Assembly: GCA_020722365.1 (NCBI GenBank)
Contig: DYKY01000003.1
Span: 29,385 to 63,656 of the forward strand
Direction: 5' to 3'
DNA from: Thermoflexus sp.
GTDB taxonomy: Bacteria; Chloroflexota; Anaerolineae; B4-G1; SLSP01
Length of the DNA: 34,272 bases
The position numbers were made by a program, and so were the translations under genes. A model generated the notes under the pieces. That model searched no databases. It saw only the letters and a program-made list of their open reading frames with translations, and was not told the DNA's origin. Shown here piece by piece: positions 3,187 to 31,747 of this stretch; the first letter of the stretch is position 1; every line of letters starts with the position of its first letter.

Positions 3187-6597
<3,411 letters not shown>

Positions 6598-6742: not shown

Positions 6743-7801
6743 TCAAGCTAGGTTCCTTACGCCGCTGAGGTTCAACTCGGCAGCGCGATGGCATTTGACG
6801 AAGTGCCCGGGACTGATTTCTTCGAACGCCGGCTCTTCTGTTTTGCAGATGTCCTTCACATACCTGCAGCGTGGGTGGAAATAGCATCCCGACGGCGGAT
6901 TGGCCGGGTTGGCGACCTCACCGGTGAGCAGGATGCGCTTTTCACGCGGCGTGGGGTCGGGGCGCGGAATGGCCGACATCAGCGCCTCGGTGTACGGGTG
7001 CTTGGGCGCCATAAACAGTTCGTGTGTCGTTGCCATTTCGACCATCTTCCCCACATACATCACCGCGACGCGCTCACTGATGTGGGCGACCACGCTCAGG
7101 TCGTGGGCCACGAATAGGTAGGTTAGTCCCATTTCCTCCTGAAGCTCCTGGAGGAGGTTGAGAATCTGCGCCTGCACCGACACGTCGAGCGCCGAGACCG
7201 GCTCGTCGCATACCAGGAATTTGGGATTTGGGGCCAACGCGCGCGCCAGGCCGATGCGCTGCCGCTGCCCACCGCTGAAGGCGTGCGGATAACGCCGCAT
7301 ATACTCCGGGCGCAGGCCCACCCGCCGCAGCATCTCCGCCACGCGATCTTCCAGTTCCTTGCCCTGCGCGATGTTCATAGCGCGTAGCGGCGCGCCCACA
7401 ATTTCCAACAGCGTCATGCGGGGGTTAAGCGAGGCATACGGATCCTGAAAGATCATCCGCATATTGCGGCGTACTTGAATAAGCTGTTCGTGCTCCAGTT
7501 CAGCAACGTTGATCCGTCCTATCTGTGGGTCTTGGAACCAGACCTCGCCGCTGGAAGGCGCGATGGCCTTCAGGATGCAGCGCCCGGTCGTGGTTTTGCC
7601 GCACCCGCTTTCGCCAACCAGGCCCAGTGTCTCGCCTTCGTTGACGTAGAAGTCGACGCCGTCCACGGCTTTGACATGACCGACGACTCTTTTGAAGAAT
7701 CCACGCTGGATGGGGAAGTACTTCTTGAGTGCCTTGACTTCCAGCAAGGGCGGTTGGGCTTGCATTTGTGATGCACTATGGATATTCGTTTGTTCGGTCA
7801 T
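6743..7801 (-). CDS. ABC transporter ATP-binding protein, DppF/OppF type
   Basis: 352 aa; Walker [13 protein letters not shown], signature [15 protein letters not shown], Walker [15 protein letters not shown]-terminal [11 protein letters not shown] oligopeptide-transporter motif. Confidence 0.95.
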
Positions 7802-7813
7802 CGTGTTGTATCC

Positions 7814-8875
7814 TTAATTCGCTCGCGCTTTCGTGGTGCGGGAAGCATACAGGTGACATCTGACGATGTGTCCCGGTTCCACTTCGATGACGGCAGGTTC
7901 GACCTCGTTGCACACGCCTTCCATAAACTGCGGGCAGCGAGGATGGAACGAGCAGCCCGGCAGCACGCTGTACGGATCGGGCACCATGCCCCTGATCGTT
8001 TCCAGCCGTTTCTTCTGACCGGCGCGCGCCATCACATCATCAAGCTGCGGGATAGACCGCAGCAGCGCCTGCGTGTAGGGGTGCAGCGGGTTCCTGAAGA
8101 TGGATGCCACGTCCGTCTGCTCGACGATTTTGCCCATATACATCACCGCGACTTCCTGGGCCATTTCGGCGATCACGCCCAGGTTGTGGGTGATGTACAT
8201 AATCGCCATATTGTATTGCTGCTGTAATTCGCGCATCAGATCGAGGATTTGCGCCTCGGTCGTCACGTCAAGTGCTGTCGTCGGCTCGTCGGCAATGAGC
8301 AGGTTGGGATTGCAGCTCAGGGCCATGGCAATCACGGCGCGCTGGCGCATCCCGCCGCTCAATTGGAAGGGATAGGTATCCACAATCCGGTCGGCATTGG
8401 GTAGCTTGGCACGGGCCAGGATGTCGATGGCGCGCTCGCGGGCTTCGGCCTTGTTCACCTGCTGGTGCAGCATAATGGCCTCCATGATCTGCGCGCCCAC
8501 TGTGCGCACGGGCAGCATGGCTGCCATTGGCTCCTGAAAGACCATCGAAATCTGGTTGCCCCGGATGGCGCGCATCGCGCGGCTGTTGGGCTTGAGTTTG
8601 GTGATCTCGATCACATTCGATGTCGATGCCGATTCCGTTTTGTGGATGGTCTGGTAATAGGTGATCTCCCCCTCCTTGATTTTGCCTGGGGAAGGGACCA
8701 ATTGCATCAGGGAAAGCGCGGTGATGCTTTTGCCACACCCGCTTTCCCCCACGATGCCCAACGTGCGCCCGGCCTTGATCGTCAGGTCAACGCCATCCAC
8801 GGCCCGGACGACGCCCTCGGCCAGATAGAAGTAGGTATGCAGATTCTTGATTTCGGCAAGCACATGATCCGACAT
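7814..8875 (-). CDS. ABC transporter ATP-binding protein, DppD/OppD type
   Basis: 353 aa; Walker [13 protein letters not shown], signature [15 protein letters not shown], Walker [25 protein letters not shown]. Confidence 0.95.
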
Positions 8876-8886
8876 GATAGCGCCTC

Positions 8887-10050
8887 CTAGCTCACGTAGG
8901 GGTCTGCGGCGTCGCGCAAGCCGTCACCCAAGAAGTTGAACATCAGCACGGCGAGCACCACCACCGGCACCGGCCAGAGAATCCACGGGTAGTGGGCCAC
9001 ATTCATAATGTCCTGGGCGTCCTGCAACATCACGCCCCAACTGATCGTCGGCGGGTTCAGACCGATGCCCAGGAAACTCAACGACGTCTCGCCGAGGATC
9101 ATGCCGGGCAGCGACCCGGTGAGCGAGACGATGATGTAGCTGAGGAAGCCGGGGATCATATAGCGGGCGATGATGGCCGCTTCGCTTTCGCCATCCAGCC
9201 GGGCCGCCAGCACGAAGTCTTCCTCGCGCATACTCAGCAGCCGCCCGCGCACCGTGCGCGCCAGGCCTGTCCACCCCAAGATGGAAAGGATGAGCGTGGT
9301 GGCAAAGTAGATGCGCAACTGTGGCCATTCGCGCGGCAGTGCGGCAGCCAGGGCCATAAATAACGGGATCGTGGGAAGCGTCGTGATCACTTCGATGACC
9401 CGTTGGATGATTTCGTCGACGACGCCGCCAAAGAACCCGGAGATGCCGCCCAGGAGCAGCCCTAGCACGAAGCTGATGGCGACCCCGATCAGGCCGACGC
9501 TCAGCGAGATGCGCGCGCCGTAAAAAATGCGTGACAGTACGTCTCGCCCGATGGTGTCCGTTCCCATAAGGAAGAGGGGCATGGCCTCATCACCCCCACC
9601 AACGCCAAACAGATGGACGTCGCTTGGAATCAGCCCCCAGAGCTTGTACGGGTCGCCGCGCACGAAGAGTCCAATCGGATAGATGATGCTCGAATTTTCC
9701 TCGTAGATGGGCCTGAACGTGTTGGGATCGCGCCCCATCTTCATGCCATAGACAAACGGTGTGTGAAACCGGCCTTCCGCATCGCGGATGTGGATCGCCG
9801 TCGGGGGGAAGGAAAGGTAGTCTTTGAAGCGGTGCAGGGGATCGTGCGGGCTGACAAACTCGGCAAAGATGGCAATAAAGTACAGAATCCCCAGGACCAC
9901 CATCGCTATCTGCGCCAGCTTGTGTCGCCTGAACTTCCACCACACGAGCTGCCACTGCCCGGCCCGATAGAATTCTTCCTCTTGTCCCTCCGGTATTTGA
10001 CGCCGTGTTTTGCGTCCCAACTGCTTTTTCTGTAACGTTTTCTTGCTCAT
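8887..10050 (-). CDS. ABC transporter permease, DppC/OppC type
   Basis: Start re-assigned to MSKKTLQKKQLGRKTRR (10050), overlapping the OppB-like stop by 4 nt; contains FLMGTDTIGRDVLSRIFYGARISLSVG and the EAA-loop region. The ORF-track 5' extension to 10503 lies inside the OppB-like gene. Confidence 0.92.
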   Translation of the reverse strand: MSKKTLQKKQLGRKTRRQIPEGQEEEFYRAGQWQLVWWKFRRHKLAQIAMVVLGILYFIAIFAEFVSPHDPLHRFKDYLSFPPTAIHIRDAEGRFHTPFVYGMKMGRDPNTFRPIYEENSSIIYPIGLFVRGDPYKLWGLIPSDVHLFGVGGGDEAMPLFLMGTDTIGRDVLSRIFYGARISLSVGLIGVAISFVLGLLLGGISGFFGGVVDEIIQRVIEVITTLPTIPLFMALAAALPREWPQLRIYFATTLILSILGWTGLARTVRGRLLSMREEDFVLAARLDGESEAAIIARYMIPGFLSYIIVSLTGSLPGMILGETSLSFLGIGLNPPTISWGVMLQDAQDIMNVAHYPWILWPVPVVVLAVLMFNFLGDGLRDAADPYVS

Positions 10051-11048
10051 GCGCCCTCCACACCGCCGAACCGGATGCGCGGATCCGACAAAGCCAATAG
10101 AACGTCGGATAAGATCGCGCTGATCGCGGTCAAGGCTCCGGTGATCAAAATATAAGCGCCGGCCATATACATATCCTGATTCCTCAACGCAGCATACAAG
10201 GCCGGGCCGGCCGTTTGCAGATTGAGGACGATCTCCAGGATAATACCGCCGGAGAAGAGCCACGGCAACAACCACATCACACTGCTCAAAATCGGGTTGA
10301 TGGCCAGCCGTGTAGGATAACGCACAATGACGTTGAATTCGGACAGTCCCTTCGCGCGCGCCACCGTCACGTACTGCTTGCGCAGCTCGTCCAGCATCAT
10401 CGCGCGCATGGTACGGATGGTGCCGGCGACGCCGCCGGTGCCGAGGAGAATGATGGGGAGCCACATATGCTTCAACAGGTCCACAAACTTCCCCCAACTC
10501 CATGGCAGCACCATGTATTCCTGTGAAAACAACCCCCCGGTGCGGATGCCAAACTTGGTGAGCGCCACATACATGATGATCATAGCCAGGAAGAACGCGG
10601 GCACAGCCAGGCCAATAAAAGTGACGAGGGTTACGATATAGTCCATAATCGAGTACTGCTTGACCGCCACATAGATGCCGATGGGGATCGCCACCGTCCA
10701 GGTAAAGATGTGCGCGAACAGGGCGATGGCAAAGGTGTAGCCCATGCGCTCCATGATGACCTGGGCCACGGGTTTCTCGAAGGTGTATGAATAGCCAAAG
10801 TCAAACTTGGTGATGATATTGCTGATCCAGAGCAGATAGCGTTGGTACATTGGCCTGTCCATGCCGTACTGTCGTATCAAGGCCTGGGCTTGCGCTTCGC
10901 TTACCGTAACCCCGCTGGCTTGCAGACGTTCTATCTGCCGTGTCACAATATCGCCAGGAGGCAGTTGGATGATGATAAAAGCCAGGATCGAGATCAACAG
11001 CAATTGGGGTATCACTCGAATAATGCGCTGAATGATATAGGCAAGCAT
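10047..11048 (-). CDS. ABC transporter permease, DppB/OppB type
   Basis: 333 aa; MLAYIIQRIIRVIPQLLLISILAFIIIQLPPGD N-terminus, RTMRAMMLDELRKQYVTVARAKGL EAA loop. Confidence 0.93.
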   Translation of the reverse strand: MLAYIIQRIIRVIPQLLLISILAFIIIQLPPGDIVTRQIERLQASGVTVSEAQAQALIRQYGMDRPMYQRYLLWISNIITKFDFGYSYTFEKPVAQVIMERMGYTFAIALFAHIFTWTVAIPIGIYVAVKQYSIMDYIVTLVTFIGLAVPAFFLAMIIMYVALTKFGIRTGGLFSQEYMVLPWSWGKFVDLLKHMWLPIILLGTGGVAGTIRTMRAMMLDELRKQYVTVARAKGLSEFNVIVRYPTRLAINPILSSVMWLLPWLFSGGIILEIVLNLQTAGPALYAALRNQDMYMAGAYILITGALTAISAILSDVLLALSDPRIRFGGVEGA

Positions 11049-11230: not shown

Positions 11231-13333
11231 TTACGCCCGCTCGCCACCTTCGTAGAAGAAGGCTGCCGGATGGTAGGTATTGACGCCGTAGGTGTCCCAG
11301 CCGAAGGGTACTTTGGGCCGCGGCACGTTGCGCATATTCTTGTTGAAGAGGATGGGGCATGGGCTTTCCAGCACCGTCCCGATCGCCAGGGGGGTATCGG
11401 CCAGGTAATCGAAGATCTTCTGCCCGATCGCGACACGCTCGTCATCGTCAACGACCAGTTTCATCTCGTCAACCCAGGCGAACAGTTGTTGGATCTCTTC
11501 CGGTGGTGTGATGAGACCCTCGGCTTCCTTGTCCGTAGCGGCGTACCACTGCTGCCAGGCGTAGGAAACGCCACCCTGTTGGCCGTCGGCCACCGGCACG
11601 TACCACTGCATCTGGATCGGCAAGAGCATATCGGTGCAGCGGTCGGCGTGCCAGATACCACACTCAACCTCGTTGGCCATCATCCGCTCGTTGTACAGCG
11701 ATTCGTCGATTTCCTTGACCGTCGCGTCGATGCCGATCTCGCGCCAGTAGGTGACGACCATCTCACAGAACTCGGCGACCGAGGCGCCCACGCGGATGCC
11801 GGCGTGCTCGATCATGTAGCTCAAGGGTTTGCCATCGGGGCGCACGCGGATGCCATCAGCGCCCTTGGGCAGTCCCATCTCGTCCAGCAGTTGATTCGCC
11901 AGCGCAGGATCATACTGCGCCCATGCTGTGCCATACTTCTCCTTGAAATATGAAGAGTTGGGCATTGGGGCCATCTGTCCCATGCGGGCCAGACCGTAGA
12001 AGAGGCTCTCGTTGATCTCGTCGCGGTCGATGGCGACCGAGAGCGCACGGGTCCAGTTGGGATGGTTGACGATCTCTTCCAGCACCGGATCCTTGGGGAG
12101 CGTGCGGCGCGGATAGAGCGTGTAGCGGTCGGTCATACAGGAGAGATAGTCGCCGATCGTGTACTTGCCCTTTTCCTCATTTTCCTTGTACAGCGGGTAC
12201 TTGGCAACGGTGACGTCGTGCATTCCCAGCCAGTCCAACTCGCCGCCGATGAGCTTCAGTTCCATCGTCTGGGTGTCGGCCATGTAGTCCAGGCGTAGGG
12301 TGTCGAGGTAGGGGAGTTGGTTGCCCACCAGGTCAACCTTCCAGTAGTAGGGGTTGCGCTCGAAGATGATGAGACCCTCCGATGGATACTCTTTCGGAAT
12401 CCATGCCGCCAGGGTGGGGAAGCCCTTGGCCCAGTCGGGGAACTGCCAGGTGTTCAGGCCCCACTGGCTGCAGAAGCGGTTGGTCACTTGTTGCCATGTC
12501 TCCATCCCCCACTCGGCCATCAGCTTATTGATAGCATCCTCGCCGGCGAAGTCGGGGTGGTAGTCCTTCAGGAAGTGCGCGGGCATGAACGGGCCTTCCT
12601 GCGGATAGCCGCCCATGTTACGGGTGAGCATGTGGGGGAAGAGGCCGAAGGTGTAGTCAAATGTGCAGCGGAAGGTGTAGTCATCGAGGATTTCAAGCTC
12701 GCAGCGTTGGCTCTGAATGCCATTGAACGGGTTGGCAACCCATCCCAGGCCCTCCACGGTGGCCCATTTGTTCCACCAGAAGTCGACATCGGCGGTGGTC
12801 AGATCCACCCCGTCCGACCATTTCATCCCCTTGCGCATATGGAAGGTATAGGTTGTGCCATCGTCCGAACTTTCCCAGCTCTCGATCATATTGGGGACAA
12901 GCGTGCGGAAGTCCGCATCTGAGTATTGCATTATCCGGTCGGTCATCCAGTCGTAGGTATCCACCGACCAGACGGTGTCGAAGTGGATCTGGCGAACCTC
13001 GCCGCCGTAGACGCCGATGGCATCGCGCCCGCCCACCACGAAGGGCACCATCGGGAGCCGTTCTTCGACGGGGGGCAGTTGTCCGGCATCAACGAGGGCT
13101 TTCAGCATGGGTGGCTCGGCGCGTCCCTCCGGCACTTCGACCTCGACGATCTTCTCGACCGGGACTTCGACCGTCTTTTCGACTTCGACGGTCTTCTCGA
13201 CCACCTTTTCGACCTCAACCGTCTTCTCGATGATCTGCGGCGTCGGCGGAGTGCAGGCCGTCGCTACCGCACCAAGTGCAGCTGCTGTGGTCAGATGCAA
13301 AAATTCGCGGCGTGTCAAATTCTTCGATTTCAT
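11231..13333 (-). CDS. Extracellular solute-binding protein family 5 lipoprotein
   Basis: 700 aa; Tat-like RREFLHLTTAAALGAVATAC lipobox, VEKVVEKTVEVEKTVEVPVEK linker, SBP_bac_5-like DYTFRCTF and WSDGVDLTTADVDFWW motifs. Confidence 0.92.
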   Translation of the reverse strand: MKSKNLTRREFLHLTTAAALGAVATACTPPTPQIIEKTVEVEKVVEKTVEVEKTVEVPVEKIVEVEVPEGRAEPPMLKALVDAGQLPPVEERLPMVPFVVGGRDAIGVYGGEVRQIHFDTVWSVDTYDWMTDRIMQYSDADFRTLVPNMIESWESSDDGTTYTFHMRKGMKWSDGVDLTTADVDFWWNKWATVEGLGWVANPFNGIQSQRCELEILDDYTFRCTFDYTFGLFPHMLTRNMGGYPQEGPFMPAHFLKDYHPDFAGEDAINKLMAEWGMETWQQVTNRFCSQWGLNTWQFPDWAKGFPTLAAWIPKEYPSEGLIIFERNPYYWKVDLVGNQLPYLDTLRLDYMADTQTMELKLIGGELDWLGMHDVTVAKYPLYKENEEKGKYTIGDYLSCMTDRYTLYPRRTLPKDPVLEEIVNHPNWTRALSVAIDRDEINESLFYGLARMGQMAPMPNSSYFKEKYGTAWAQYDPALANQLLDEMGLPKGADGIRVRPDGKPLSYMIEHAGIRVGASVAEFCEMVVTYWREIGIDATVKEIDESLYNERMMANEVECGIWHADRCTDMLLPIQMQWYVPVADGQQGGVSYAWQQWYAATDKEAEGLITPPEEIQQLFAWVDEMKLVVDDDERVAIGQKIFDYLADTPLAIGTVLESPCPILFNKNMRNVPRPKVPFGWDTYGVNTYHPAAFFYEGGERA

Positions 13334-13465
13334 AGCTTCCTCCTTCTCTGATAGAATGTGTAAATGAAATGCTCTTCACGGAGAGGCAGCCCCTCCATGG
13401 TTAGAGTCTACGAAGTGTAAATCAGGGTCATAAAAAGCCTTTATGCGCAGGACTGTTATTCTATA

Positions 13466-13528
13466 CTTTAGCACCCCTTTCCCGAAAAGTCTTCCATTTT
13501 TCGGACAGATTTTGATACTTTTAGGACA
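13466..13528 (-). promoter_or_regulatory. Candidate operator/promoter of the SBP-ABC-transporter operon (21-bp-spaced direct repeat)
   Basis: Minus strand TGTCCTAAAAGTATCAAAATCTGTCCGAAAAATGGAAGACTTTTCGGGAAAGGGGTGCTAAAGTA; TGTCC repeats start at 13528 and 13507. Confidence 0.65.
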
Positions 13529-13532
13529 GATA

Positions 13533-13656
13533 AGCCTTCAGCCTTCAGCCTTCAGCTTTCAGCTTTCAGCTTTCAGCTTTCAGCTTTCAGCTTTCAGCCT
13601 TCAGCCTTCAGCTAGCCGCCGCTGATTGCTGACTGCTGATAGCTGATCGCTGACAG
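13533..13656. repeat. Heptanucleotide array (AGCYTTC units then GCTGAnn units)
   Basis: agccttc x3, agctttc x6, agccttc x2, agctagc, 4-nt interruption, gctgatt gctgact gctgata gctgatc gctgaca; abuts the stop codon of the 858-aa gene at 13657. Confidence 0.97.
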
Positions 13657-16233
13657 CTATGCCAGTTTCAGCCGCATCAGGTAGTTTTCGGACCGAATTT
13701 CCATCTGCGGAGCGCGCAGCTCTGTAACAGAATATGGGTTTTCGTAATGTTTGAACCCCGCGAGTGGTTCCGGCTGGTCATTTCGCAGCAGTGAGCCTTC
13801 CCACCCGAAGGTCAACGTCTCGCCTCGCAGTGTGGTCAAGGTGACCGCCAGATCGTCGAACCTCACCGGCAGCGCGAGCACGCTTTCCTGGAACGCTTCG
13901 AACTCTCCATCCAGCGCGGCGCGTCCCATGTGACATAACCAGACGTTGTGCTGTCCGGGCGAGCGCAATTCGCGATAGGCGCCCGGTCCTTGCGTCATCA
14001 GCGTGAGTCCATGGGCCGCGGTGAGTGCCAGATAGCCTTTCCCCTTTTGCACGAAGGCCCAGGAGCGCCCTTGCGCATCCTCACGTACGCAGTAAGCGTC
14101 GAAGGCAGCGGTGGGGAAGTAAGCGTGTGTGAAGCCCATCCAGTCGTCGTCCGGCAGGCGGTACACGGCGATAAGGACGTCTTTCCACTGCGCCACGCGC
14201 GGCAGAACGCCGTTGCCGCGCCAGAAGCCGGGCGCGTGCGCTTCTGTCATGCCGCTGTTGGCCGGGTGGTTGGTGAAGACGACCGCTCCCGGTCCCAGCG
14301 TGGCTTGCCAGATGTGCTCGTGCGTCCCCGGTGCGCCGGGACGGTAATCCTGCGCCGAACCGAGTAGATAATCCGGCGTCCGGTAGGTGACTTTGTTGAC
14401 GCTGCGCGCCTCGTGAGCGTCGTCGCCGGCGGTCAGGATGTGCTGCTCGCGGTTCCACAGCTCGTCCGAGGCCGCCGTCGCGATTTCATCAAGCAACGGC
14501 AGCAGCTCGTAGTCTTCCATGCACGCCAGGCTCACGGGGCCGGCCAGGTGCTGGTTGAGGATGCCCATCCCCCACAGCAGCCGCATGACGTCACCCAGGG
14601 GCGAGAGCCAGCCGCCCAGGACGCTCGCGGCGTTGGCGCGGCCTTGCGTCCCGCCGAGCACTCCGTGAAAGCTGTTGAGGGCGATCGTGAACAGCAGCTT
14701 GTCCAGCACGACGGTTGCCATTTCCCAGAGGGCCTCGTTTTCGACCAGGTCGATCAGATGGGCCAGCGCCGTTAAGTCTGCCTCGAAGGCTGGCCCAGAA
14801 TCCCATTCGCCGAATCCGCCCATCGCCCGCGCGCGCAGCCAGGCCATGGCCCGGCGTTTGCCTTGCGCGACGTGCCATTCCCCGGTCTGCCCGCTGCGCT
14901 TGAACTTCCGTTTGGGATACAATTGCCCGGCGAGGATCTCGCACGTGTGGAGCAGGAGTTGTTCGCTCTCCGGGACTGCGTCCAGGTGTTGGTCATAATC
15001 GAAGTTGAGGAGGCAGGCCCTGAGAGCGCCTTCGAGTGCCTTGGGGAACTCCGGGGCATCGCCCCAGCGATACTGCATGCCGAGCAGACCAAGCAAATGC
15101 AGGGCGCTGCCCGCCGCGCGGTTGTTGATGCGCTCGATGTGCTGAAGGAGTAAGAGGGTCTCAACGCCACTCCACATCCCTAGAGCCATTTTCGCCATCT
15201 CGCCGAAGAGATTGCCCTCGCAACGGGCCGCGTGTTGCAGGGCGTCCATGCGCCGTTTGGCGTAATCACCCTCAGGGACCTCGTTGTAGCGCGCCAGTCC
15301 CATGCCCCAGAGCGAAAACGTGCGACGTATGCGGGTGTTCTCGTCATAGTATGCCTTGATGGGCGGCATCACGATGATGCGCAGCGGACCCTGCGGCGCT
15401 TGGTGCGCCTGGACGAGCGGCCACTTGTCGCCAGGTACAACGGTGGCGAGCGATTCCGCGTAGATGCGGCCTGCCGGGGTTTGCAGGCGGATAAGCGCTT
15501 CTTCGGGGGTGTCCTTGCTCTCTGCCCAGTAGAGGGTCGGACGTTCTTCCCAGACGAACACATCGCGGTCGAGATAGGCAGCAGCAAAGATACGCTCAAG
15601 TTTGTTGCGGTAGTTTACGTCGGTAATGAGGGTGGGGAGTTGCAAGCGCACGTCGCCCGGCGCATCGACAAAGCGCAGAGCGAACGCGTGCGGGAGTTTG
15701 TCTGGGCCGCCGGCGAATTGCTCGAAGCGCACCGCGATGGCATTGTGACCTTCTGTCAAGTCGACGGTGAAACTGTCCTGGTGAAAACCGAACGCAGTGT
15801 ACCTGTGGCAGAGGACATCATTGATCCATACGTCTGCCGGGCCATAGGTGGTTAGAACCAGTGTCGCCGGTCCGGCCTGCGCCGGCTCGACTTCGATGTA
15901 GGCCCACGCGCGTGCGTAATGAGGCAAGGGATCGGGGGCCGTGAAAGCAAGCAAGCTGTCGCCGTCCACAAAGTGATCCTCGGCGCACGTCGTGTACGCC
16001 CAACGCCCGGTGTAGTCGCCGATTGTGAGGTCGGCTTCCGGCAGCGGTCCCGGCTCTACCGGCTGGCGTGTGATGCCGGAGTTCTCGGTGTGAAGGCGCT
16101 GCGCGAGACGTAATTTGGCGTCTGCGTTAAAGAGGGTGTCTGGATTGTCAAGGGTAAGGGTCTGAGGCCCGGCAACAAGCCACTGGTGAATGTAGCCGTT
16201 CTGAAGTGCATACGTGATGTAGGAAACAGGCAT
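13657..16233 (-). CDS. Large conserved-type protein of unknown family (possible carbohydrate-active enzyme)
   Basis: 858 aa uninterrupted ORF; N-terminal beta-rich region (AGPATLVLTTYGPADVWINDVLCHRYTAFGFHQDSFTVDLTEGHNAIAVRF), then a long helical region, then a beta-rich C-terminus; no family recognised by eye. Confidence 0.7.
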   Translation of the reverse strand: MPVSYITYALQNGYIHQWLVAGPQTLTLDNPDTLFNADAKLRLAQRLHTENSGITRQPVEPGPLPEADLTIGDYTGRWAYTTCAEDHFVDGDSLLAFTAPDPLPHYARAWAYIEVEPAQAGPATLVLTTYGPADVWINDVLCHRYTAFGFHQDSFTVDLTEGHNAIAVRFEQFAGGPDKLPHAFALRFVDAPGDVRLQLPTLITDVNYRNKLERIFAAAYLDRDVFVWEERPTLYWAESKDTPEEALIRLQTPAGRIYAESLATVVPGDKWPLVQAHQAPQGPLRIIVMPPIKAYYDENTRIRRTFSLWGMGLARYNEVPEGDYAKRRMDALQHAARCEGNLFGEMAKMALGMWSGVETLLLLQHIERINNRAAGSALHLLGLLGMQYRWGDAPEFPKALEGALRACLLNFDYDQHLDAVPESEQLLLHTCEILAGQLYPKRKFKRSGQTGEWHVAQGKRRAMAWLRARAMGGFGEWDSGPAFEADLTALAHLIDLVENEALWEMATVVLDKLLFTIALNSFHGVLGGTQGRANAASVLGGWLSPLGDVMRLLWGMGILNQHLAGPVSLACMEDYELLPLLDEIATAASDELWNREQHILTAGDDAHEARSVNKVTYRTPDYLLGSAQDYRPGAPGTHEHIWQATLGPGAVVFTNHPANSGMTEAHAPGFWRGNGVLPRVAQWKDVLIAVYRLPDDDWMGFTHAYFPTAAFDAYCVREDAQGRSWAFVQKGKGYLALTAAHGLTLMTQGPGAYRELRSPGQHNVWLCHMGRAALDGEFEAFQESVLALPVRFDDLAVTLTTLRGETLTFGWEGSLLRNDQPEPLAGFKHYENPYSVTELRAPQMEIRSENYLMRLKLA

Positions 16234-16263: not shown

Positions 16264-16354
16264 CGAAAGTCAAAAGTCCAAAGTCAAAAGTCCAAGGTCG
16301 AAAGTCCACAATCCACAATCCACAATCCACAATCCACAATCCACAATCCACAAT
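16264..16354. repeat. Heptanucleotide array, 13 phased units
   Basis: cgaaagt caaaagt ccaaagt caaaagt ccaaggt cgaaagt then ccacaat x7; abuts the stop codon of the receiver gene (TGA at 16356-16354). Confidence 0.97.
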
Positions 16355-16728
16355 CAACCCACGTTGACGCCGACTTCGGTGAGGGCGGCCTGGAAATCGT
16401 CGTAGAGGATGGGTTTGCGCAGGTAGAGTGCGGCGCTCACATCCAGATCGTGTTCGGCCTCGTCAGTCCACGAGCAGAGAATGACCGGAATGTCGCACGT
16501 TAAAGGGTGGGCCTTAAGCGTTCCCAGGATGGCGAGTCCCTTGTCGCCAGGGCTATCCAGTTCGACGATGACCACACCCGGGTTTTCGTGCAAGGCGATG
16601 CTGAGCGCGTCTTCGCCAAAGTGCGCCAGCACGATCGGGCAAGCGGCTTTTTGGGCGTACCGCTGCATCAAGTAACAAAAACTCGCATCGTCGCCGACGA
16701 CCAGCAGGGGTGATAGTATTGAAGCCAT
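16354..16728 (-). CDS. Stand-alone receiver-domain (response-regulator-like) protein with a Glu at the phosphoacceptor position
   Basis: 124 aa; LLVVGDDA acidic pocket, VVIVELDSPGDKG in place of LLDLxxPxxDG, PVILCSW, YLRKP conserved Lys. Confidence 0.75.
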   Translation of the reverse strand: MASILSPLLVVGDDASFCYLMQRYAQKAACPIVLAHFGEDALSIALHENPGVVIVELDSPGDKGLAILGTLKAHPLTCDIPVILCSWTDEAEHDLDVSAALYLRKPILYDDFQAALTEVGVNVG

Positions 16729-16743
16729 ACCATCCTCGTGAAA

Positions 16744-16831
16744 CGTGATGCGTGATTCGTAATCAGTAATCGGTAATCGGTGGTTGGGATGGAATTACCA
16801 GTTACCCGTTACCCGTTACGAATTCCTAATC
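16744..16831. repeat. Heptanucleotide array upstream of the receiver gene
   Basis: cgtgatg cgtgatt cgtaatc agtaatc ggtaatc ... accagtt acccgtt acccgtt acgaatt cctaatc. Confidence 0.85.
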
Positions 16832-16837: not shown

Positions 16838-16901
16838 ACTGTAGCACCGTGTGCGAAAAAAGTCTTCCACTTTTCGGACGACTTCTTGCATTTTTCGGAC
16901 A
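16838..16901 (-). promoter_or_regulatory. Candidate operator/promoter upstream of the receiver/858-aa genes (same element)
   Basis: Minus strand TGTCCGAAAAATGCAAGAAGTCGTCCGAAAAGTGGAAGACTTTTTTCGCACACGGTGCTACAGTA; GTCC repeats 21 bp apart (16900, 16879); GGTGCTA at the same offset as in the first copy. Confidence 0.65.
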
Positions 16902-17009: not shown

Positions 17010-20000
17010 TCAAGTCTTGTTCTGAAATTCGCGCGGGGAGACGCCCATTTCCTGGTGGAATACCCGCGTAAAGTAGCCGCCGCTGGAGAAGCCCACCGCC
17101 ATCGCGACCTCGGTGATGCTCATATCGCCAGCGTCCAGCAGCGCCTTGGCTTGCTGGATGCGATAGCGGTTCAGATACGTCATCGGCGTCACGCCCACTT
17201 CTTGCTGGAAGCAGCGGGTCAGGTGGCGCTCGCTCAGCCCCACGTGAGCAGCAATCTCGCCGCGCGTGAGTGGATCCATATAGTGGGTATGGATGAAGGC
17301 CATGGCTTTGTGCACCAACCGTTGGACGTCAAGGACAGTCTTGCGGCGGCGCGCTAACATAGCTTCGATGTGTTCCAGGGTTTCCTCCGCGCTGAACAGC
17401 CCCTTGCTGAGGATGCTGACCATCCCGCGATTGAGCCGCACCATATCCGCTTCGGTTAAGACCTGCGCGGTGAGGATGACCACCGGGATGTGCTGAGTCG
17501 CCGGGTCGTCGCGCATGGCTTCCAGGACGCTAAACCCATCCAGTTCGGGCATCATCAGGTCCAATAGAACGAGGTCGGGCTGTTCCTGGCGCAGAATGTC
17601 CAGCGCTTCCCGCCCATTATGCGCTTGCAGCACGTGATAGTGGGGGGATTGCGCCTGGACCATGCGTGTGTGCATGGCCAGAATGTTGGGATCGTCGTCG
17701 ACGACCAGGATTTTGCGCGTTTCCGACGTTCCCCCTGGGGTGTCCAGCAGCCCTTGTCCGAGCAGCATCTCGGCCAGTTGGGTTCTGCCGAGTGGTTTCA
17801 TCAAAAAGTCCAGAGGCAACAGCGCCCCCTTGCCGCCATCGCCTGAAAGGGTGTAGCAGAGCACCGGCACATCGCGTGTGTGGGGATGCTCTTTCAGCGT
17901 CTTCAAGATGTTCCACCCGTGTGCGGATGTCACGGCCTGATCCAGGATCACAGCGTCAGGCGAGCCGCTGCACAACAGGGCGCGCCAATCTGTTTCTGTG
18001 CTGACCGTCCGCATGACAATATCGACGCCTTTGTGCGCGAGATGTTCCTCGAGGCGCTGGCCTTGCGCTACATCTTCCGTAAGGAGCAACACGTGACCGC
18101 GCGCGGCATCGTCACATTCGCCGGTGGCGGAGGTCTCGTGTTCCATGACCGGCAGCGTGAAGTAGAATTCAGCCCCGCGCCCTTCTTCTCCGGTGGAATG
18201 GACGCCGATGGCGCCCTGGTGCATTTCGACCAACAACTTGCAGATCGCCAGCCCAAGCCCCAGGCCACCGTAACCGCGCGAGGTGGTGCGCTCTGATTGC
18301 CGGAACTCGTCGAAGATCAGGGCTTGTTCCTCAGGCGAAATGCCCAGACCGGTATCGTGGACGGAGATGGTCAAGGTCCTGGGTGTGTCGGCAGCCTCGG
18401 AAGCGTCAGCATCGTTGCCCACAGTCACACGCAAACCGACTTCGCCTTGCGAGGTGAATTTGACCGCGTTGTTGATCAGGTTCAGGACTATCTGCCGCAA
18501 CCGCGTGCGATCTCCCCACACGCGGGGCAGTGAGTCGGGGATGTCGGCCTGCCAGCGCAGCGCCTTGTCCTGCGCGAGTTGGCGGGCGATCACGATGACC
18601 GGCTCGAGCATCTCGTTGATGTCCACCACTTCGTAGCTCAACTGCAATTGCCCCACTTCGATCCGGGTCAGGTCCAATACGTCGCGGATCAGGCCATCCA
18701 GATGCTGCGCGTTGACATAGATGCGCTTCAGGTCCTCCTGCCGGTTGCTGTTCAGCGCCGTTTCGGGCGGCGTTTCGCGCAACAGCAGGTCGCTCAGGCC
18801 AGAGATGAGATTCAAGGGTGTGCGTAATTCGTGGCTGACCATCGACAGGAAGCGGCTCTTGAGCCGGCTGGCATCTTCAGCCATCTGCCGGCGCTCTTCC
18901 GCCAGGCGCTGCGCTTCGACGGCCTGCCGGTACAGGCCAATGCCCCGCAGTGACGCCGCCAACTGCCGGACGATGTGAGCACACGGTTCCAGGTTGCCGG
19001 CGTCGAAGGCGACAAAACCGGATGCGCCGCCTTGAATCCGCAGGGGTAGAAGCGCCAGGCTGAAAGGTTGGTCGTCGGGATACAAACCCGGTGGTGGAAA
19101 TTGCCGGCTGAGGAAGCGTCGTTGACTTTCATCGCTGAGGAGCGGCGCTTGGACGACGCTCCACGCGGCCGGGTCGGCGCCTTCTGATTCATAGAAAGCC
19201 ACGACGGCATGGCGAATGCCAATCGTCGGGAGCGTGTCCGGCAAGATGGCAAATATCTCTGCTTCGTCCTGCGCGGCGAAAAAGCGGGCCGTCATCCGTC
19301 CAATCTGGTCGGAGATGTCGATCTGCCGCAACATGTGGCGTGTGTTCTGTTCGTGAGCAATTTCGCCGATCACGAGTCTGGCCCGATCCAAAATGTTCTC
19401 TGCATGGCGCCACACTTCGGGATCGGCAGTCATCCCCACAAGCGCCGCGCTATTGTCCCGCAAAAGGGAGATGGCGGCTTGCCAGGCATTGGGATTTCCT
19501 CCTAACGCGACTGCCTGTTGGAGAATCTGCCGCAAGGTCACATACAAGGCCCGGTTGTCGCGCTGTTGTATGTCTGTTACGAAGGCTTCCACCAACCGCT
19601 GGCACAGAAGGCGCACCTCGTCTGCGTTCAACCGCTGCATATGGATATTCATCGTCGCCGCTATCGCCTGCGCTATGCTCGTTGTCGCCGACTCATCCTG
19701 CGCGACCTGTGCTGTCTTTGCCGCATCGGCGGTCGTCGGAGCGCCGATTGAACAGCCGCACGATTCACGAACGATCAATTGTGTAGGCACCTGAACGGTT
19801 TTAACGCCTTTTACTCGACCTTCGATATACTCCAGCACGAGCAAAACACCTTGGTACCCCTCTTCGAATGCCGGGTAGCGGACGGTAGTCATGGGCGGTA
19901 CGTGCGCGGTGGCTTCGAGCCGGTCGTCAAAACCGATGACGGCGACATCGCGCGGTACGTGCAGGCCGTTTCTGTTGAGGACCTGCATCGCGCCGAGCGC

Positions 20001-20666
20001 GGAGAGGTCGTTGCTGGCGACCAGCGCGGTGAAGGGGACGTTGGAGGCGAGGATCTGCTCCATCGCCCGCCGCCCGCCGCCGGTGCCGTGGGAGCCGTAG
20101 GCGATCAGGCGCGGGTCGGTTTCCAGGCCGTATGCTTGCACGGCGGCGTGATAGGCATGGATGCGGCGCGCGCTGTCGCCGTCGGTGTCGCGCTGGTATC
20201 CGGCGATAAAGGCGATGCGCCGGTGGCCGTGCGCGACCAGGTGTGCCATCGCTTGCTGGATGCCGCCCTCGTTGTCGGCCATAACTGTTGGCCCTTTCTC
20301 TCCGGCGCCGACGAACACAATGGGGTACTCCTCGGCGACAAGGCGTTGTAGATAACTCGCCATTGGTTCCGCGGTGAACCGTCCCACGATCAGCAGCCCA
20401 TCCACGTTCCACGGGCCGACCGGGATGAAATCGACGTCCGGCAAGGGGACGGCCCAGGCCGGGCGCGGACTTTCCTGGCCAATGCCCAGGTCTACGCTGC
20501 ACGAAAGCAGGAGGTTGCAGTCCATATCATGCGCGGCGGCGCGCGTCCCTTCATACACCGGGCCGAGGAACGTGTCGAGCGTCCCGGTATACACGCGCCA
20601 GCCTGCCAGCACGCCTATGGTGGGGCGATTGTGTTTGTACGTTGTCTCCCTTCCATCATGATGCAT
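17010..20666 (-). CDS. Hybrid signalling protein: LacI-type periplasmic-binding-like sensor, histidine kinase, two receivers, AraC HTH
   Basis: 1218 aa; PBP1-like N-terminus ending VQVPTQLIVRESCGC; H-box FLSMVSHELRTPLNLISGLSDLL; N-box QIVLNLINNAVKF; DTGLGISPEEQALIFDEF; receivers PDAVILDQAVTSAHG and PDLVLLDLMMPELDG; C-terminal AraC HTH LSERHLTRCFQQEVGVTPMTYLNRYRIQQAKALLDAGDMSITEVAMAVGFSSGGYFTRVFHQEMGVSPREF. No obvious TM segment. Confidence 0.92.
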   Translation of the reverse strand: MHHDGRETTYKHNRPTIGVLAGWRVYTGTLDTFLGPVYEGTRAAAHDMDCNLLLSCSVDLGIGQESPRPAWAVPLPDVDFIPVGPWNVDGLLIVGRFTAEPMASYLQRLVAEEYPIVFVGAGEKGPTVMADNEGGIQQAMAHLVAHGHRRIAFIAGYQRDTDGDSARRIHAYHAAVQAYGLETDPRLIAYGSHGTGGGRRAMEQILASNVPFTALVASNDLSALGAMQVLNRNGLHVPRDVAVIGFDDRLEATAHVPPMTTVRYPAFEEGYQGVLLVLEYIEGRVKGVKTVQVPTQLIVRESCGCSIGAPTTADAAKTAQVAQDESATTSIAQAIAATMNIHMQRLNADEVRLLCQRLVEAFVTDIQQRDNRALYVTLRQILQQAVALGGNPNAWQAAISLLRDNSAALVGMTADPEVWRHAENILDRARLVIGEIAHEQNTRHMLRQIDISDQIGRMTARFFAAQDEAEIFAILPDTLPTIGIRHAVVAFYESEGADPAAWSVVQAPLLSDESQRRFLSRQFPPPGLYPDDQPFSLALLPLRIQGGASGFVAFDAGNLEPCAHIVRQLAASLRGIGLYRQAVEAQRLAEERRQMAEDASRLKSRFLSMVSHELRTPLNLISGLSDLLLRETPPETALNSNRQEDLKRIYVNAQHLDGLIRDVLDLTRIEVGQLQLSYEVVDINEMLEPVIVIARQLAQDKALRWQADIPDSLPRVWGDRTRLRQIVLNLINNAVKFTSQGEVGLRVTVGNDADASEAADTPRTLTISVHDTGLGISPEEQALIFDEFRQSERTTSRGYGGLGLGLAICKLLVEMHQGAIGVHSTGEEGRGAEFYFTLPVMEHETSATGECDDAARGHVLLLTEDVAQGQRLEEHLAHKGVDIVMRTVSTETDWRALLCSGSPDAVILDQAVTSAHGWNILKTLKEHPHTRDVPVLCYTLSGDGGKGALLPLDFLMKPLGRTQLAEMLLGQGLLDTPGGTSETRKILVVDDDPNILAMHTRMVQAQSPHYHVLQAHNGREALDILRQEQPDLVLLDLMMPELDGFSVLEAMRDDPATQHIPVVILTAQVLTEADMVRLNRGMVSILSKGLFSAEETLEHIEAMLARRRKTVLDVQRLVHKAMAFIHTHYMDPLTRGEIAAHVGLSERHLTRCFQQEVGVTPMTYLNRYRIQQAKALLDAGDMSITEVAMAVGFSSGGYFTRVFHQEMGVSPREFQNKT

Positions 20667-26192: not shown

Positions 26193-26585
26193 TTATCGTT
26201 GTGGTGTGATTTTTGTCAGTACGAATGCGTATGCCGCTTGAGCTTGCCGGTAGAATTGTTGTACCTGGGCTGCGGTTGGGGTCAGCGGCAAATCGGTTGG
26301 ATACCGTACCTCAACGGCGTAGGGGGTCAATCCGGCAATATGGACTTCCAGTTCGGTAAAGCTCGCATCGACTTCCAGGCACAAATCAAGCAAGTATCCC
26401 AGGTCATGGCGGTAAAGAAACGAAACATCCCGAGATGTCAAAAACGCTTTGAGACTTTTCTCCACGGCTTGCTGGCAGTGGAAGGCTGCTATGTTACGAG
26501 GGTACACCTCAAAGGTCAAAAGCAGCGCAACGGCTTGTAAATCATCCCGCGCTTTGGATAACCATTCGTCAACTCGGTCGTTCAT
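26193..26585 (-). CDS. HEPN-domain protein (toxin component of a HEPN/MNT pair)
   Basis: 130 aa; WLSKARDDLQAVALLL ... IAAFHCQQAVEKSLKAFLTSRDVSFLYRHDLGYLLDLC; overlaps the upstream MNT gene. Confidence 0.85.
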   Translation of the reverse strand: MNDRVDEWLSKARDDLQAVALLLTFEVYPRNIAAFHCQQAVEKSLKAFLTSRDVSFLYRHDLGYLLDLCLEVDASFTELEVHIAGLTPYAVEVRYPTDLPLTPTAAQVQQFYRQAQAAYAFVLTKITPQR

Positions 26586-26892
26586 ACAGCACTTTTCCGG
26601 TTTCTAAGATTTGCTGTACAAAAGAATGTGGGCGGGAGAGACATTGCTTTACTTCGGCGGGGGTGTAGGCCAAAATATCTACGGGCGTCTTCCGGGGACG
26701 TAAGGCGCGGCTAATGGCCTCTTGGCGTTGGTCGCGCGCAAGGTTGGAGTCCCATATCACGAGCAAATCAATGTCACTCTGCGCTGTGGCTGTGCCATCC
26801 GCGTAAGAACCAAAGACCACCACTTTTTCAGGGGTCAGGTTTTGCAGTAGCTTCGCGAGCAGTCTTTGTAATTGCGTCTCGTTTTCGTTCAT
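26569..26892 (-). CDS. MNT-type minimal nucleotidyltransferase (antitoxin component of a HEPN/MNT pair)
   Basis: Start taken at MNENETQ; VVVFGSYADGTATAQSDIDLLVI contains an intact GSx10DxD motif. Confidence 0.88.
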   Translation of the reverse strand: MNENETQLQRLLAKLLQNLTPEKVVVFGSYADGTATAQSDIDLLVIWDSNLARDQRQEAISRALRPRKTPVDILAYTPAEVKQCLSRPHSFVQQILETGKVLYERPS

Positions 26893-26988
26893 CAGCTTCT
26901 TTACCTGTGCTTCTGAACAAATTGTAGCATGGTTTAATCTGGAGAGCAAACGCGCCGCGCAGCTAGAATGTCGGTTTGTGGTCGGTGC

Positions 26989-27886: not shown

Positions 27887-27998
27887 TGAGAAGTGTACGC
27901 GATCTGGAAGAATAGGCAAATGCGCGCATCGTGAGCGGTGCGCTCGCGCGCTTGCCTTGTTGACCATAGTAGGAGTTGTGCCATAATTTCATTAAAGC

Positions 27999-28089
27999 CG
28001 TCAGCGATCAGCTTTCAGCGATCAGCGATCGGCGATCAAGAATCGAGTATCCAGTATCTAGCATCCAGTATCTAGCATCCAGCATCCAG
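27999..28089. repeat. Heptanucleotide array, 13 phased units
   Basis: cgtcagc gatcagc tttcagc gatcagc gatcggc gatcaag aatcgag tatccag tatctag catccag tatctag catccag catccag; followed by the uxuA SD. Confidence 0.95.
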
Positions 28090-28104
28090 TACGGAGGAAA
28101 ACCT

Positions 28105-29118
28105 ATGTTCATCGACCGACCGGACATTGAGCCGGGCATCAAAATCGCGGCGCAGATCACGCCGGAACCGACCGAGGACGATCTCGCGTTCATCCAGCAG
28201 ATGGGGGTGGGCTACGTCGTGTTGTGGACCGACGCCACGAAATCGAGCTACGAGTATTACGCCAGCCGTCGCCGCTTGTTCGAGGATCGCGGCCTCAAGG
28301 TCTACGGCTTCGGCAACAGCGACGTCCACAACCAGGACGCCATCGTCCTCGGCCTGGAAAACCGCGACGCGAAGATCGAGGAATACAAGCAGCACCTGCG
28401 CAACCTGGGCAAGGCCGGCATCCCCTACACGACTTACGCGCACATGGCGAACGGCATCTGGAGCACCGAGCGCGAGACGACGCGCGGCGGCGCGCCCGCG
28501 CGGGCGTTCAACCTGGACAAGGCCGACGCAGGTCACTGGCACGGGCGGCAGTACGACATGCCCCTCACCCACGGGCGAAAGTACAGCGAGGACGAAATCT
28601 GGGACAACTTCGCGTACTTTATCAAGCAGGTGGTCCCCGTGGCGGAAGAGGCCGGCGTCAAGATCGGCATCCACCCCGACGATCCACCCGTGCCGGAACT
28701 GGGCGGCATCCCACGGTGCATCTTTAGCAACTTCGAAGGCTACAGACGCGCGCTGGACATGGCAGACAGCCCCAATGTCGGCCTCTGTCTCTGCGTCGGC
28801 TGCTGGCTGGAGGGCGGCGCGTGGATGGGCAGGGACGTCCTCGAGACCATCAAGTACTTCGGCGAGAGAAGAAAGCTGTTCAAGATTCACTTCCGCAACG
28901 TCAGCCAGCCGCTTCCGTACTTTGTGGAGACGTTCCTCGATAACGGCTACATGGATATGTACAAGGTGATGCACGCCTTACGCGAGGTGGACTTCGACGG
29001 CGTCGTTATCGCCGACCACATCCCGCTGATGGGAAACGACCACCGCATCAGCACTGCATTTAGCATCGGCTATATGAAGGCTCTTCTCGAACGCGCCAAC
29101 GCTGAATTCGCCGTCTAG
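28105..29118 (+). CDS. uxuA: Mannonate dehydratase-like (UxuA family) TIM-barrel enzyme
   Basis: SD ggagga upstream of ATG at 28105; KIGIHPDDPPVPELGGIPRCIFSNFEGYRRALD, FKIHFRNVSQPLPYFVETFLDNGYMDMYKVMHALREVDFDGVVIADHIPLM. Confidence 0.83.
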   Translation: MFIDRPDIEPGIKIAAQITPEPTEDDLAFIQQMGVGYVVLWTDATKSSYEYYASRRRLFEDRGLKVYGFGNSDVHNQDAIVLGLENRDAKIEEYKQHLRNLGKAGIPYTTYAHMANGIWSTERETTRGGAPARAFNLDKADAGHWHGRQYDMPLTHGRKYSEDEIWDNFAYFIKQVVPVAEEAGVKIGIHPDDPPVPELGGIPRCIFSNFEGYRRALDMADSPNVGLCLCVGCWLEGGAWMGRDVLETIKYFGERRKLFKIHFRNVSQPLPYFVETFLDNGYMDMYKVMHALREVDFDGVVIADHIPLMGNDHRISTAFSIGYMKALLERANAEFAV

Positions 29119-29146
29119 CGACTTGCGGCTAAAATTGTTTTGTAAG

Positions 29147-29187
29147 GGTATTTTTCGATTGCGCATCTAGCGCAATCGAAAAATACC
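29147..29187. other. 18-bp perfect inverted repeat, 5-nt loop, between uxuA and RraA genes
   Basis: GGTATTTTTCGATTGCGC (29147-29164) atcta GCGCAATCGAAAAATACC (29170-29187). Confidence 0.92.
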
Positions 29188-29215
29188 TCCAATTATCTCA
29201 AGGAGCGAAAACACC

Positions 29216-29944
29216 ATGTCAGACGAAAAACAATCCTCGATTTTGGAATTGCAGGCCCGGTGGAACAAGATTCGGATTGCGAATTTGTATGATACGCTGG
29301 ATCCGATGGGCTACCCCAATCAATGTCTCGACCTGAGCATCCGCCCGCTGTTTCCTCACCAACATCTGGCGGGCGTCGCGGTGACGGTGCGCGGCAGCCG
29401 CGACCCGACTTCGTGGGAGGAGAAGGAGGCTGTGCGCAAGAAGGCCGAGGCAGAAGGCAAACCCATAGCGACCGGGCCACACCTGCACGAGTGCCTTTTC
29501 CCCGGATGCGTGGTTGTGGTGGATGGCGGCGGCGAGCCGCACACCGGCAAATTCGGTGAGATGACGAGCTGGGATATGATGCAGCGCGGCGCGAAGGGCA
29601 TCGTCATCGACGGCTACATCCGCGACCGGTTGGGGTTGGAAGTCATTCCCGACTATACCGTCTGCGCCAAGGGGACGTCGCCCATCGAATCGGCCAGACG
29701 CTGGAGCATCGTCGGCGTCAATGTCACCATTGGGATGCCCGGCACGCTCACGAGCATGGTGCCCGTGCGCCCCGGTGACTGGATCGTCGGCGGGCCGGAT
29801 GGCGTCATCGTCGTCCCGCAGGAAATCGCGATGGAAGTCCTCGAAAAGGCCGAGGAGATCGAAGCCCGCGAGCAGGGCATGCGCGAAGACTTTGCGAAAG
29901 GGATGTCCTTTAAGGAAGCCTACGAGAAGTGGGGGCGGGCATAA
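29216..29944 (+). CDS. RraA-like family protein (HMG/CHA aldolase-like)
   Basis: 242 aa; ANLYDTLDPMG, GEMTSWDMMQRGAKGIVIDGYIRDRLGLE, VRPGDWIVGGPDGVIVVPQEIAMEVLEKAEEIE are typical of RraA-like proteins. Confidence 0.88.
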   Translation: MSDEKQSSILELQARWNKIRIANLYDTLDPMGYPNQCLDLSIRPLFPHQHLAGVAVTVRGSRDPTSWEEKEAVRKKAEAEGKPIATGPHLHECLFPGCVVVVDGGGEPHTGKFGEMTSWDMMQRGAKGIVIDGYIRDRLGLEVIPDYTVCAKGTSPIESARRWSIVGVNVTIGMPGTLTSMVPVRPGDWIVGGPDGVIVVPQEIAMEVLEKAEEIEAREQGMREDFAKGMSFKEAYEKWGRA

Positions 29945-30042
29945 CGATTCCAGATTTAGGAGTTGCGATTTTAGATTTCCAACTTTCGACCTTCGACTTT
30001 CGACCTTGACTATGGACTAACGACTGAAGACTATGGACTACA
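29945..30042. repeat. Heptanucleotide array filling the whole RraA-to-AKR spacer
   Basis: 14 units: cgattcc agattta ggagttg cgatttt agatttc caacttt cgacctt cgacttt cgacctt gactatg gactaac gactgaa gactatg gactaca; first unit directly follows the RraA stop (29944) and the last two contain the AKR start codon (30033). Confidence 0.93.
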
Positions 30043-30815
30043 TCAACTTTGGAAATACAGGACTGAAAGTGTCACGTCTGTCGATTGGAACAGGCACGCA
30101 TGGCTGGGCCGGGCGTTCGGATCAGACGGCCTTGGGACTGGAGGGCCTGGCGAACTTGCTGCGCCGCGCTTTCGATGCGGGCGTCAACTTTTGGGATGTG
30201 GCGGATCAATACGGCTCGCATCCGCACGTAGCGCGCGCGTTGCAAGGGATACCCCGCGAGCAGGTGGTGATTGCGACCAAGACGATGTCGCGGAAAGGCC
30301 CCGACGTTGCCAGAGACCTGGCGCGCTTCCGCAAAGAATTGAACACCGACGTCATCGATATTGTGCTGCTGCACACGCTGAGCGACGCTAACTGGCCCAA
30401 GAAATGCGCTGACGCGATGGAGGTGCTCTCCCGCGCCAAAGAAGCGGGCATCGTGCGCGCTGTGGGCTTTTCGTGTCACGGTCTTGGCGCGCTGCGCGTT
30501 GCTGTGGAAGTTCCCTGGGTCGATGTGGTGCTGGTGCGCATCAACCACGCCGGCGTGAACATGGATGCTTCCCCGACCCGTGTCGTACCCGTTATCGAGG
30601 AGCTTTACGCTGCCGGAAAAGCCATCTACGGGATGAAAGTCCTCGGCTGCGGTGCGTTGAAGGGTAACGTGCGCAGTGCTATCGAGTACGTTCTGCGGCT
30701 TGGCACGCTCCACGCCTTCACCATCGGCATGACAAGCGCCGCTCAGCTTGAGGAGAACGTGCGGTTGGTTGAAGAACTGGCGCCGAAGTATCCATTGAAA
30801 AAGATTGATGGTTGA
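30033..30815 (+). CDS. Aldo/keto reductase family protein
   Basis: 260 aa; MDYINFGNTGLKVSRLSIGTGTHG, FDAGVNFWDVADQYGSH, IDIVLLHTLSD, GIVRAVGFSCHG. Confidence 0.88.
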   Translation: MDYINFGNTGLKVSRLSIGTGTHGWAGRSDQTALGLEGLANLLRRAFDAGVNFWDVADQYGSHPHVARALQGIPREQVVIATKTMSRKGPDVARDLARFRKELNTDVIDIVLLHTLSDANWPKKCADAMEVLSRAKEAGIVRAVGFSCHGLGALRVAVEVPWVDVVLVRINHAGVNMDASPTRVVPVIEELYAAGKAIYGMKVLGCGALKGNVRSAIEYVLRLGTLHAFTIGMTSAAQLEENVRLVEELAPKYPLKKIDG

Positions 30816-30867
30816 ATGAGTGTAGATTTGCTATCTGCTAAATCGGTTGACTTCTTAAGGGGGAGAG

Positions 30868-31731
30868 ATGGAGATCAATCTTACTGATGAGCGGGCCTTT
30901 ATTTTTCAGGCGCAGCTCTCCGTCGATCAGGCGGAGGGGCGCGCGTGGAGCCACAAGGTGGATGCGTTTGGGACGATGGCGAAGATGGGCAGCTTGCTCC
31001 AACGTCCCAAGGAAGACGATTTCAAGCTGATGTACAAAGAGCAGCGCTACGAGCCTTTCTGGCATGTGGTGTGCGATGCGCGTTACGTCTACGAGCGGCG
31101 TGGGGAATATCCCCTGACCTTCAACGATTCTGTAGTCAAGGCGGTGACGATTGACGGTGTGCAGTATCAGGTCTGCAACGGAAAGATCATGCTTGCTGGA
31201 TTGGAACACTGCCGGGAGGAATTGCACGCGGACGTCTTTTTCGATGGTTTGACGAGCGCGCGTAACCCGGCGCTGACCGACTATTTGAAGTATGCCGCCG
31301 TCGAAATCCCCGGTGACGACCTCGATGACTTTTCCGCCGGTGAGTCCGTCGTTGTGCCTCCTGCCGCGCGCGCTTCGGCGATCGTCCACGAAGTGCTGAT
31401 CGAGATGATCAAGAGCGTGAAGGCCGAGCGTATCCTGGAGGACCGCATCGACGTCGCGCAGATCGACCTCTACTACCGTCCGGTGTACGCCTTCCAGTAT
31501 CGTTGGATGTCCAAGGAGAAAGAGGCGATTGTGGAATACGACGGGTTGACCGGACAGTGGCAGGCCGGCGGCAAGACCTTCCAGCAGTACGTGGGCAAGA
31601 TTCTCGATCCCGATTTCCTCTTCGATGTGGGGGTGGAAACGGTGGACCTGTTGGTACCCGGCGGCGGTCTCGCCATCAAACTGGCGAAGAAAGGTCTTGA
31701 CGTCGCACGTGGATCAAAGAAAGACGGATAA
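30868..31731 (+). CDS. Hypothetical protein
   Basis: 287 aa; SD ggggagag before the ATG; YEPFWHVVCDARYVYERRGEYPL and IDLYYRPVYAFQYRWMSKEKEAIVEYDGLTGQW; no confident family. Confidence 0.75.
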   Translation: MEINLTDERAFIFQAQLSVDQAEGRAWSHKVDAFGTMAKMGSLLQRPKEDDFKLMYKEQRYEPFWHVVCDARYVYERRGEYPLTFNDSVVKAVTIDGVQYQVCNGKIMLAGLEHCREELHADVFFDGLTSARNPALTDYLKYAAVEIPGDDLDDFSAGESVVVPPAARASAIVHEVLIEMIKSVKAERILEDRIDVAQIDLYYRPVYAFQYRWMSKEKEAIVEYDGLTGQWQAGGKTFQQYVGKILDPDFLFDVGVETVDLLVPGGGLAIKLAKKGLDVARGSKKDG

Positions 31732-31747
31732 TCTCAGCGAGGTGACC

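Follow-up and report, generated by a model that had tools for sequence, protein, structure and literature searches.

Paired 21-bp direct repeats as the probable operator of an adjacent soluble hybrid kinase in Thermoflexus sp.

The window, by which we mean the whole stretch of 34,272 nucleotides that was analysed, carries on its minus strand a hybrid kinase gene followed by two groups of genes. A candidate operator lies ahead of each group: site 1 precedes the gene of a family-5 solute-binding protein (SBP), and site 2 lies between the kinase gene and the gene of a small receiver. The genes, in reading order, are as follows.

17010-20666, minus strand: hybrid kinase of 1218 aa (Pfam domains, homologues), the proposed binder of both sites
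16354-16728, minus strand: small receiver of 124 aa, first gene behind site 2, with Glu at the usual phospho-Asp position
13657-16233, minus strand: 858-aa protein, second gene behind site 2
11231-13333, minus strand: family-5 SBP, first gene behind site 1, with orthologues in relatives
6743-11048, minus strand: Opp/Dpp-type ABC transporter, two permeases and two ATPases (genes at 10047-11048, 8887-10050, 7814-8875 and 6743-7801)
3187-6579, minus strand: GH2 beta-galactosidase, last in the cluster, with partial orthologues in relatives

The receiver beside the kinase has Glu in all 10 loci with a window-type operator, and Glu or Asp in other homologous loci (30 receivers). For the 858-aa protein, no relative was found in Pfam, NCBIfam or PDB, and its predicted structure (pLDDT 35) was unusable; the protein encoded between both operators is 55-84% identical in six loci. 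Among the structurally characterised relatives of the SBP are one that binds an alpha-galactoside and one that binds a chitin oligosaccharide. These relatives, together with the GH2 beta-galactosidase, support an oligosaccharide of some kind as the probable substrate.

Arrays of a 7-bp tandem repeat at 13533-13658, 16266-16355 and 16795-16819 are intergenic, lie near the promoters and vary among relatives. A second carbohydrate cluster occupies 27976-34249 on the plus strand (UxuA-like, RraA-like, aldo/keto reductase and GH38 alpha-mannosidase genes), and no copy of the operator was found in it. Two small adjacent genes at 26193-26949 on the minus strand were judged by eye to be a HEPN / nucleotidyltransferase-like pair.

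The two candidate operator blocks, of 66 bp each, lie on the minus strand at 13528-13463 and 16901-16836. They are identical at 47 of 66 bases, compared with only 30-34 of 66 for the best mutual match of shuffled promoter regions. Read from 13528 down, site 1 is TGTCCTAAAAGTATCAAAATC TGTCCGAAAAATGGAAGACTTTTCGGGAAAGGGGTGC-TAAAGT; read from 16901 down, site 2 is TGTCCGAAAAATGCAAGAAGT CGTCCGAAAAGTGGAAGACTTTTTTCGCACACGGTGC-TACAGT. When the first base is counted as 0, the half-sites of both start at positions 0 and 21, and position 58 is the first of the -10 hexamer. Their elements are listed here.

13511-13528, minus strand: site 1 distal half-site TGTCCTAAAAGTATCAAA, positions 0-17, A-box TGTCC (sequence; conserved in G001, G002, G003 and G011)
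13490-13507, minus strand: site 1 proximal half-site TGTCCGAAAAATGGAAGA, positions 21-38, A-box TGTCC, B-box TGGAAGA (sequence, alignment)
13493-13488, minus strand: site 1 poor -35, AAGACT, spacer 17 bp (sequence)
13465-13470, minus strand: site 1 -10, TAAAGT, with TGC before it as an extended -10 (sequence; position fixed in 15 aligned sites)
near 13458, minus strand: site 1 predicted RNA start
16884-16901, minus strand: site 2 distal half-site TGTCCGAAAAATGCAAGA, A-box TGTCC, B-box TGCAAGA (sequence)
16863-16880, minus strand: site 2 proximal half-site CGTCCGAAAAGTGGAAGA, A-box CGTCC (sequence, alignment)
16866-16861, minus strand: site 2 poor -35, AAGACT, spacer 17 bp (sequence)
16838-16843, minus strand: site 2 -10, TACAGT, with TGC before it (sequence; position fixed in 15 aligned sites)
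near 16831, minus strand: site 2 predicted RNA start

The first-pass annotation of this DNA had claimed paired half-sites 21 bp apart at two promoters, with a -10-like sequence at an equal offset, and both features are present in the two blocks. Its claim of TGTCC in every half-site holds for three of them, the proximal half-site of site 2 having CGTCC instead. The unit it described, TGTCC(N)AAAA, is there as part of a larger conserved unit. In each half-site a B-box resembling TGNAAGA lies 11 bp in, beyond TGTCC(N)AAAA, and at both sites an extended -10 (TGC-TAMAGT) stands 17 bp after the poor -35.

In Escherichia coli, AraC binds araI1-I2 at araBAD, two direct half-sites 21 bp apart of which the proximal one abuts the -35. 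Each half-site has an A-box and, about 11 bp further, a B-box. AraC is a one-component regulator: it is its own arabinose receptor and, in addition, loops DNA. The layout of the window sites is like that of araI1-I2 although the sequences differ; no third site was found here. Two features expected of AraC/XylS-type operators were seen, a direct repeat with a period of about 21 bp and a fixed distance to a promoter whose -35 is abutted or overlapped. The half-site spacing of 21 bp and the -10 at position 58 are kept without gaps in 15 of 15 aligned sites, lag 21 is highest in a survey of 54 loci, and in a second operator type described below the -10 lies at 58-59. The anatomy therefore fits the AraC-type operator that had been claimed, and by every feature open to computation the candidate is an ordinary operator of this already known kind.

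The blocks were compared with their counterparts in four relatives (G001, G002, G003 and G011). Mean identity was 0.89-1.00 over positions 0-39 and 0.68-0.82 over positions 40-59, and fell to 0.19-0.38, that is, to chance level, in DNA at least 60 bp upstream. Within the reach of their contigs, these four genomes and G015 share with the window the order kinase - operator - receiver - 858 aa - operator - SBP - permease - permease - ATPase - ATPase. Such a footprint already contradicts the idea that the 21-bp repeat arose from the 7-bp tandem arrays as a side effect, or is a dispersed repeat element, since the operator is kept while the surrounding DNA is unconserved. The arrays do adjoin site 1 and sit between genes, and 21 is 3 x 7, but the operator shows no 7-bp period and has only two copies in the genome. 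In addition, when the arrays were masked in the survey of related loci, lag 21 stayed highest while lags 14 and 28 vanished. We regard an origin of this kind as extremely improbable.

Site 1 also contains a partial inverted repeat, CCGAAAA...TTTTCGG, as might be expected if the blocks were an RNA leader element or attenuator and not a DNA operator. We give this explanation next to no chance: the predicted -10 is downstream of the block, loci L017, L020 and L021 lack the inverted repeat, and an Rfam search of the window returned no match. The inverted repeat was likewise rejected as the operator itself, being lost in those three loci while the direct repeat persists.

A 70-bp sequence model of the direct-repeat operator had exactly two matches in the 3.95-Mb genome, both of them the promoter sites. 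The scatter over non-promoter places that the first-pass annotation had named as a refutation was absent. With a bipartite pattern allowing at most 3 mismatches, both sites and one weak 3-mismatch match were found genome-wide, and the reversed control pattern gave 3 matches in the same genome. Applied to 397 genomes of the class, the model found 22 sites, spread over 12 genomes. All could be placed: 10 at kinase-receiver junctions, 11 ahead of an SBP gene, and the single remaining one next to a kinase gene and in front of divergent genes related to sugars. Six of the 22 sites were on contigs that had not contributed to the model (G004:C374, G020:C164, G076, G109 with two sites, and G162), and all six fit the expected gene context. 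Low-scoring pattern matches in G026 and G006 were set aside; the model gave no match there, and the locus around the G006 match has no site.

The kinase gene accompanies the operator. A homologue at E <= 1e-130 was present in all 12 operator genomes, compared with 59 of 397 genomes overall (p = 4e-11, a value inflated by kinship, with no correction for relatedness), and its gene adjoins the operator in most of the 12. In Pfam, the domain order of the window kinase is a LacI-like sensor (Peripla_BP_3), HisKA, HATPase_c, two receivers, the second with a QHIP loop, and an AraC-type HTH_18, which bears out the AraC helix-turn-helix output noticed at first reading. No membrane segment was found by hydropathy: the highest 19-residue value was 1.33, inside the ATPase domain, compared with 2.61 for a window permease. 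The LacI-like part is the ligand-binding part only; an N-terminal LacI helix-turn-helix is missing, and the operator is a direct repeat and not a palindrome. No window-type site was found ahead of the kinase gene itself.

For 59 loci, the kinase homologue extended through the helix-turn-helix domain. Among lags 12-44 downstream of the gene, the 21-bp period was the strongest in the 54 loci whose sequence was long enough (mean z 0.81, against 0.31 for the runner-up), and it was still top in the 44 loci without a window-type operator. With more distant kinases, another direct repeat stood at this position, its period again 21 bp. When the third position of the first recognition helix was R (S-x-RHL or -RYL), GTCC/GTTCC half-site pairs were found in 18 of 29 loci, compared with 0 of 21 loci with a D-type helix (SEDYL; Fisher p 2.4e-6, shared ancestry ignored). 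A second operator type, TCTATGNTTTGTCCA and TCTCGCTTTTCTCCA spaced 21 bp apart (TCTATG/TCTCGC boxes), occurred in 14 of the 21 D loci and in none of the 29 R loci (p 1.2e-7, shared ancestry again ignored), a count that is descriptive since the pattern was written from some of the counted loci. Here too the distance from the start to the -10 is 58-59 bp, though the -10 was outside the search pattern.

No clear operator of their own class was found in the scanned stretch of 11 of 29 RH/RY loci and 7 of 21 DY loci. Among these are L017 and L053, whose operator is known and was missed by the scan since it overlaps the frame end. The split between helices is not simply taxonomic, because both helix classes occur in the window's own family. 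Comparison of the second helix-turn-helix with the B-box by eye gave no clean correspondence. In L066 and L067 the period was 22 bp instead of 21 bp, with repeats of the TGTCCACTTCGTGC type. One genome, G029, has three full-length kinase paralogues (L053, L054 and L055); L053 is followed by a window-type operator and L055 by a different 21-bp repeat.

The blocks could instead be operators of another AraC-type protein encoded elsewhere, the hybrid kinase being a mere neighbour. The genome has further AraC-type hybrid proteins, for example G000:C179, but this one matches at 38% only, and the operator tracks the kinase gene from genome to genome and contig to contig, its type shifting with the helix of the kinase. 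We leave only a slim chance to another regulator. The first-pass choice of the hybrid kinase as the regulator agrees with its presence in 12 of 12 operator genomes, mostly adjoining the operator, and with the shift of operator type with the first recognition helix. From these comparisons, the predicted binding of the candidate operator by the AraC domain of the kinase is strongly supported.

Very probably, then, the repeats serve as operator for the soluble hybrid kinase encoded next to them, which would sense a sugar and switch on the receiver/858-aa genes and the SBP-permease-ATPase-beta-galactosidase operon. The LacI-like domain would sense the sugar in the cytoplasm, and the kinase, judging from its intact His and Asp motifs, would phosphorylate its own receiver domain or domains. 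Two AraC-type domains could then lie side by side on the 21-bp direct repeat, one per half-site, with the first helix-turn-helix on the A-box TGTCC and the second on the B-box TGNAAGA, in what seems the likely orientation. Because the proximal half-site overlaps the poor -35, the bound protein may recruit RNA polymerase to the extended -10 promoter. One output would be expression of the receiver and 858-aa genes, the other that of the SBP-permease-ATPase-beta-galactosidase operon. We infer that control by the kinase depends on phosphorylation and that a sugar, e.g. a galactoside, is the inducer.

Activation, not repression, is deduced here from position only. The kinase might bind the blocks as a repressor that the sugar releases; it has a LacI-like sensor, and LacI proteins are mostly repressors. 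However, the -10 is downstream of the operator, which overlaps the poor -35, whereas a repressor would more usually sit on the -10 or the start, and AraC-type output domains are mostly activators. The chance of repression appears slightly slimmer still than that of another regulator.

The proposed activator resembles the hybrid two-component systems (HTCS) of Bacteroides, which have been described as unique to Bacteroidetes (PMC3878776). In both, sensor, kinase, receiver and AraC-type helix-turn-helix are joined in one chain (PMC3878776; PMC11253607), as the Pfam domain order of the window kinase indicates, and the genes stand beside carbohydrate loci. Predicted Bacteroides HTCS operators are direct repeats with a mean distance of 21 bp (PMC3878776), the distance also found at the window sites. 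The QHIP of the second receiver resembles the S/CHIP of the HTCS receiver. The window kinase differs in its LacI-like sensor, in having no membrane segment that we could find, and in its second receiver domain. The locus differs in its adjoining small receiver gene, in an Opp/Dpp-type ABC transporter in place of SusC/SusD, and in a gene context that is not of the Bacteroidetes type. BT1754, the fructose-sensing HTCS, likewise has a sensor of the sugar-binding-protein type (COG1879, not COG3292), but that sensor is periplasmic (PMC3878776), whereas the one of the window kinase is apparently cytoplasmic. One defining feature of HTCS is a membrane-bound protein with a periplasmic sensor, and by hydropathy and its LacI-like sensor the window kinase is not such a protein. 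Because of this we do not class it as an HTCS, and it is better described as a soluble variant that, by its sequence, would work like one.

These results suggest that the hybrid two-component principle occurs outside Bacteroidetes, with a soluble sensor. A literature search, with subscription papers mostly outside its reach, found no report of the kinase family outside Bacteroidetes. The analysis provides a concrete predicted assignment of regulator, operator and targets in a little-studied bacterial group, and the motif is so specific that the genome of each of the closest relatives has only two sites. The approximately 60 related regulators with paired operators are natural data on the choice of DNA by AraC-type helices. 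A broader and rather doubtful possibility is that soluble hybrid kinases with LacI-like sensors form a family that spans the class, outside Bacteroidetes, and uses one promoter layout. In such a family, an RH to DY change in the helix would switch the A-box from TGTCC to TCTATG/TCTCGC at constant geometry, and the co-induced Glu receiver would be a fixed-on partner in kinase feedback.

At one locus, L095 (G004:C374), an SBP 93% identical to that of the window lies behind a window-type operator, and the best kinase match in that genome reaches only 47%. This could be explained either by transfer between lineages or by a misplaced contig.
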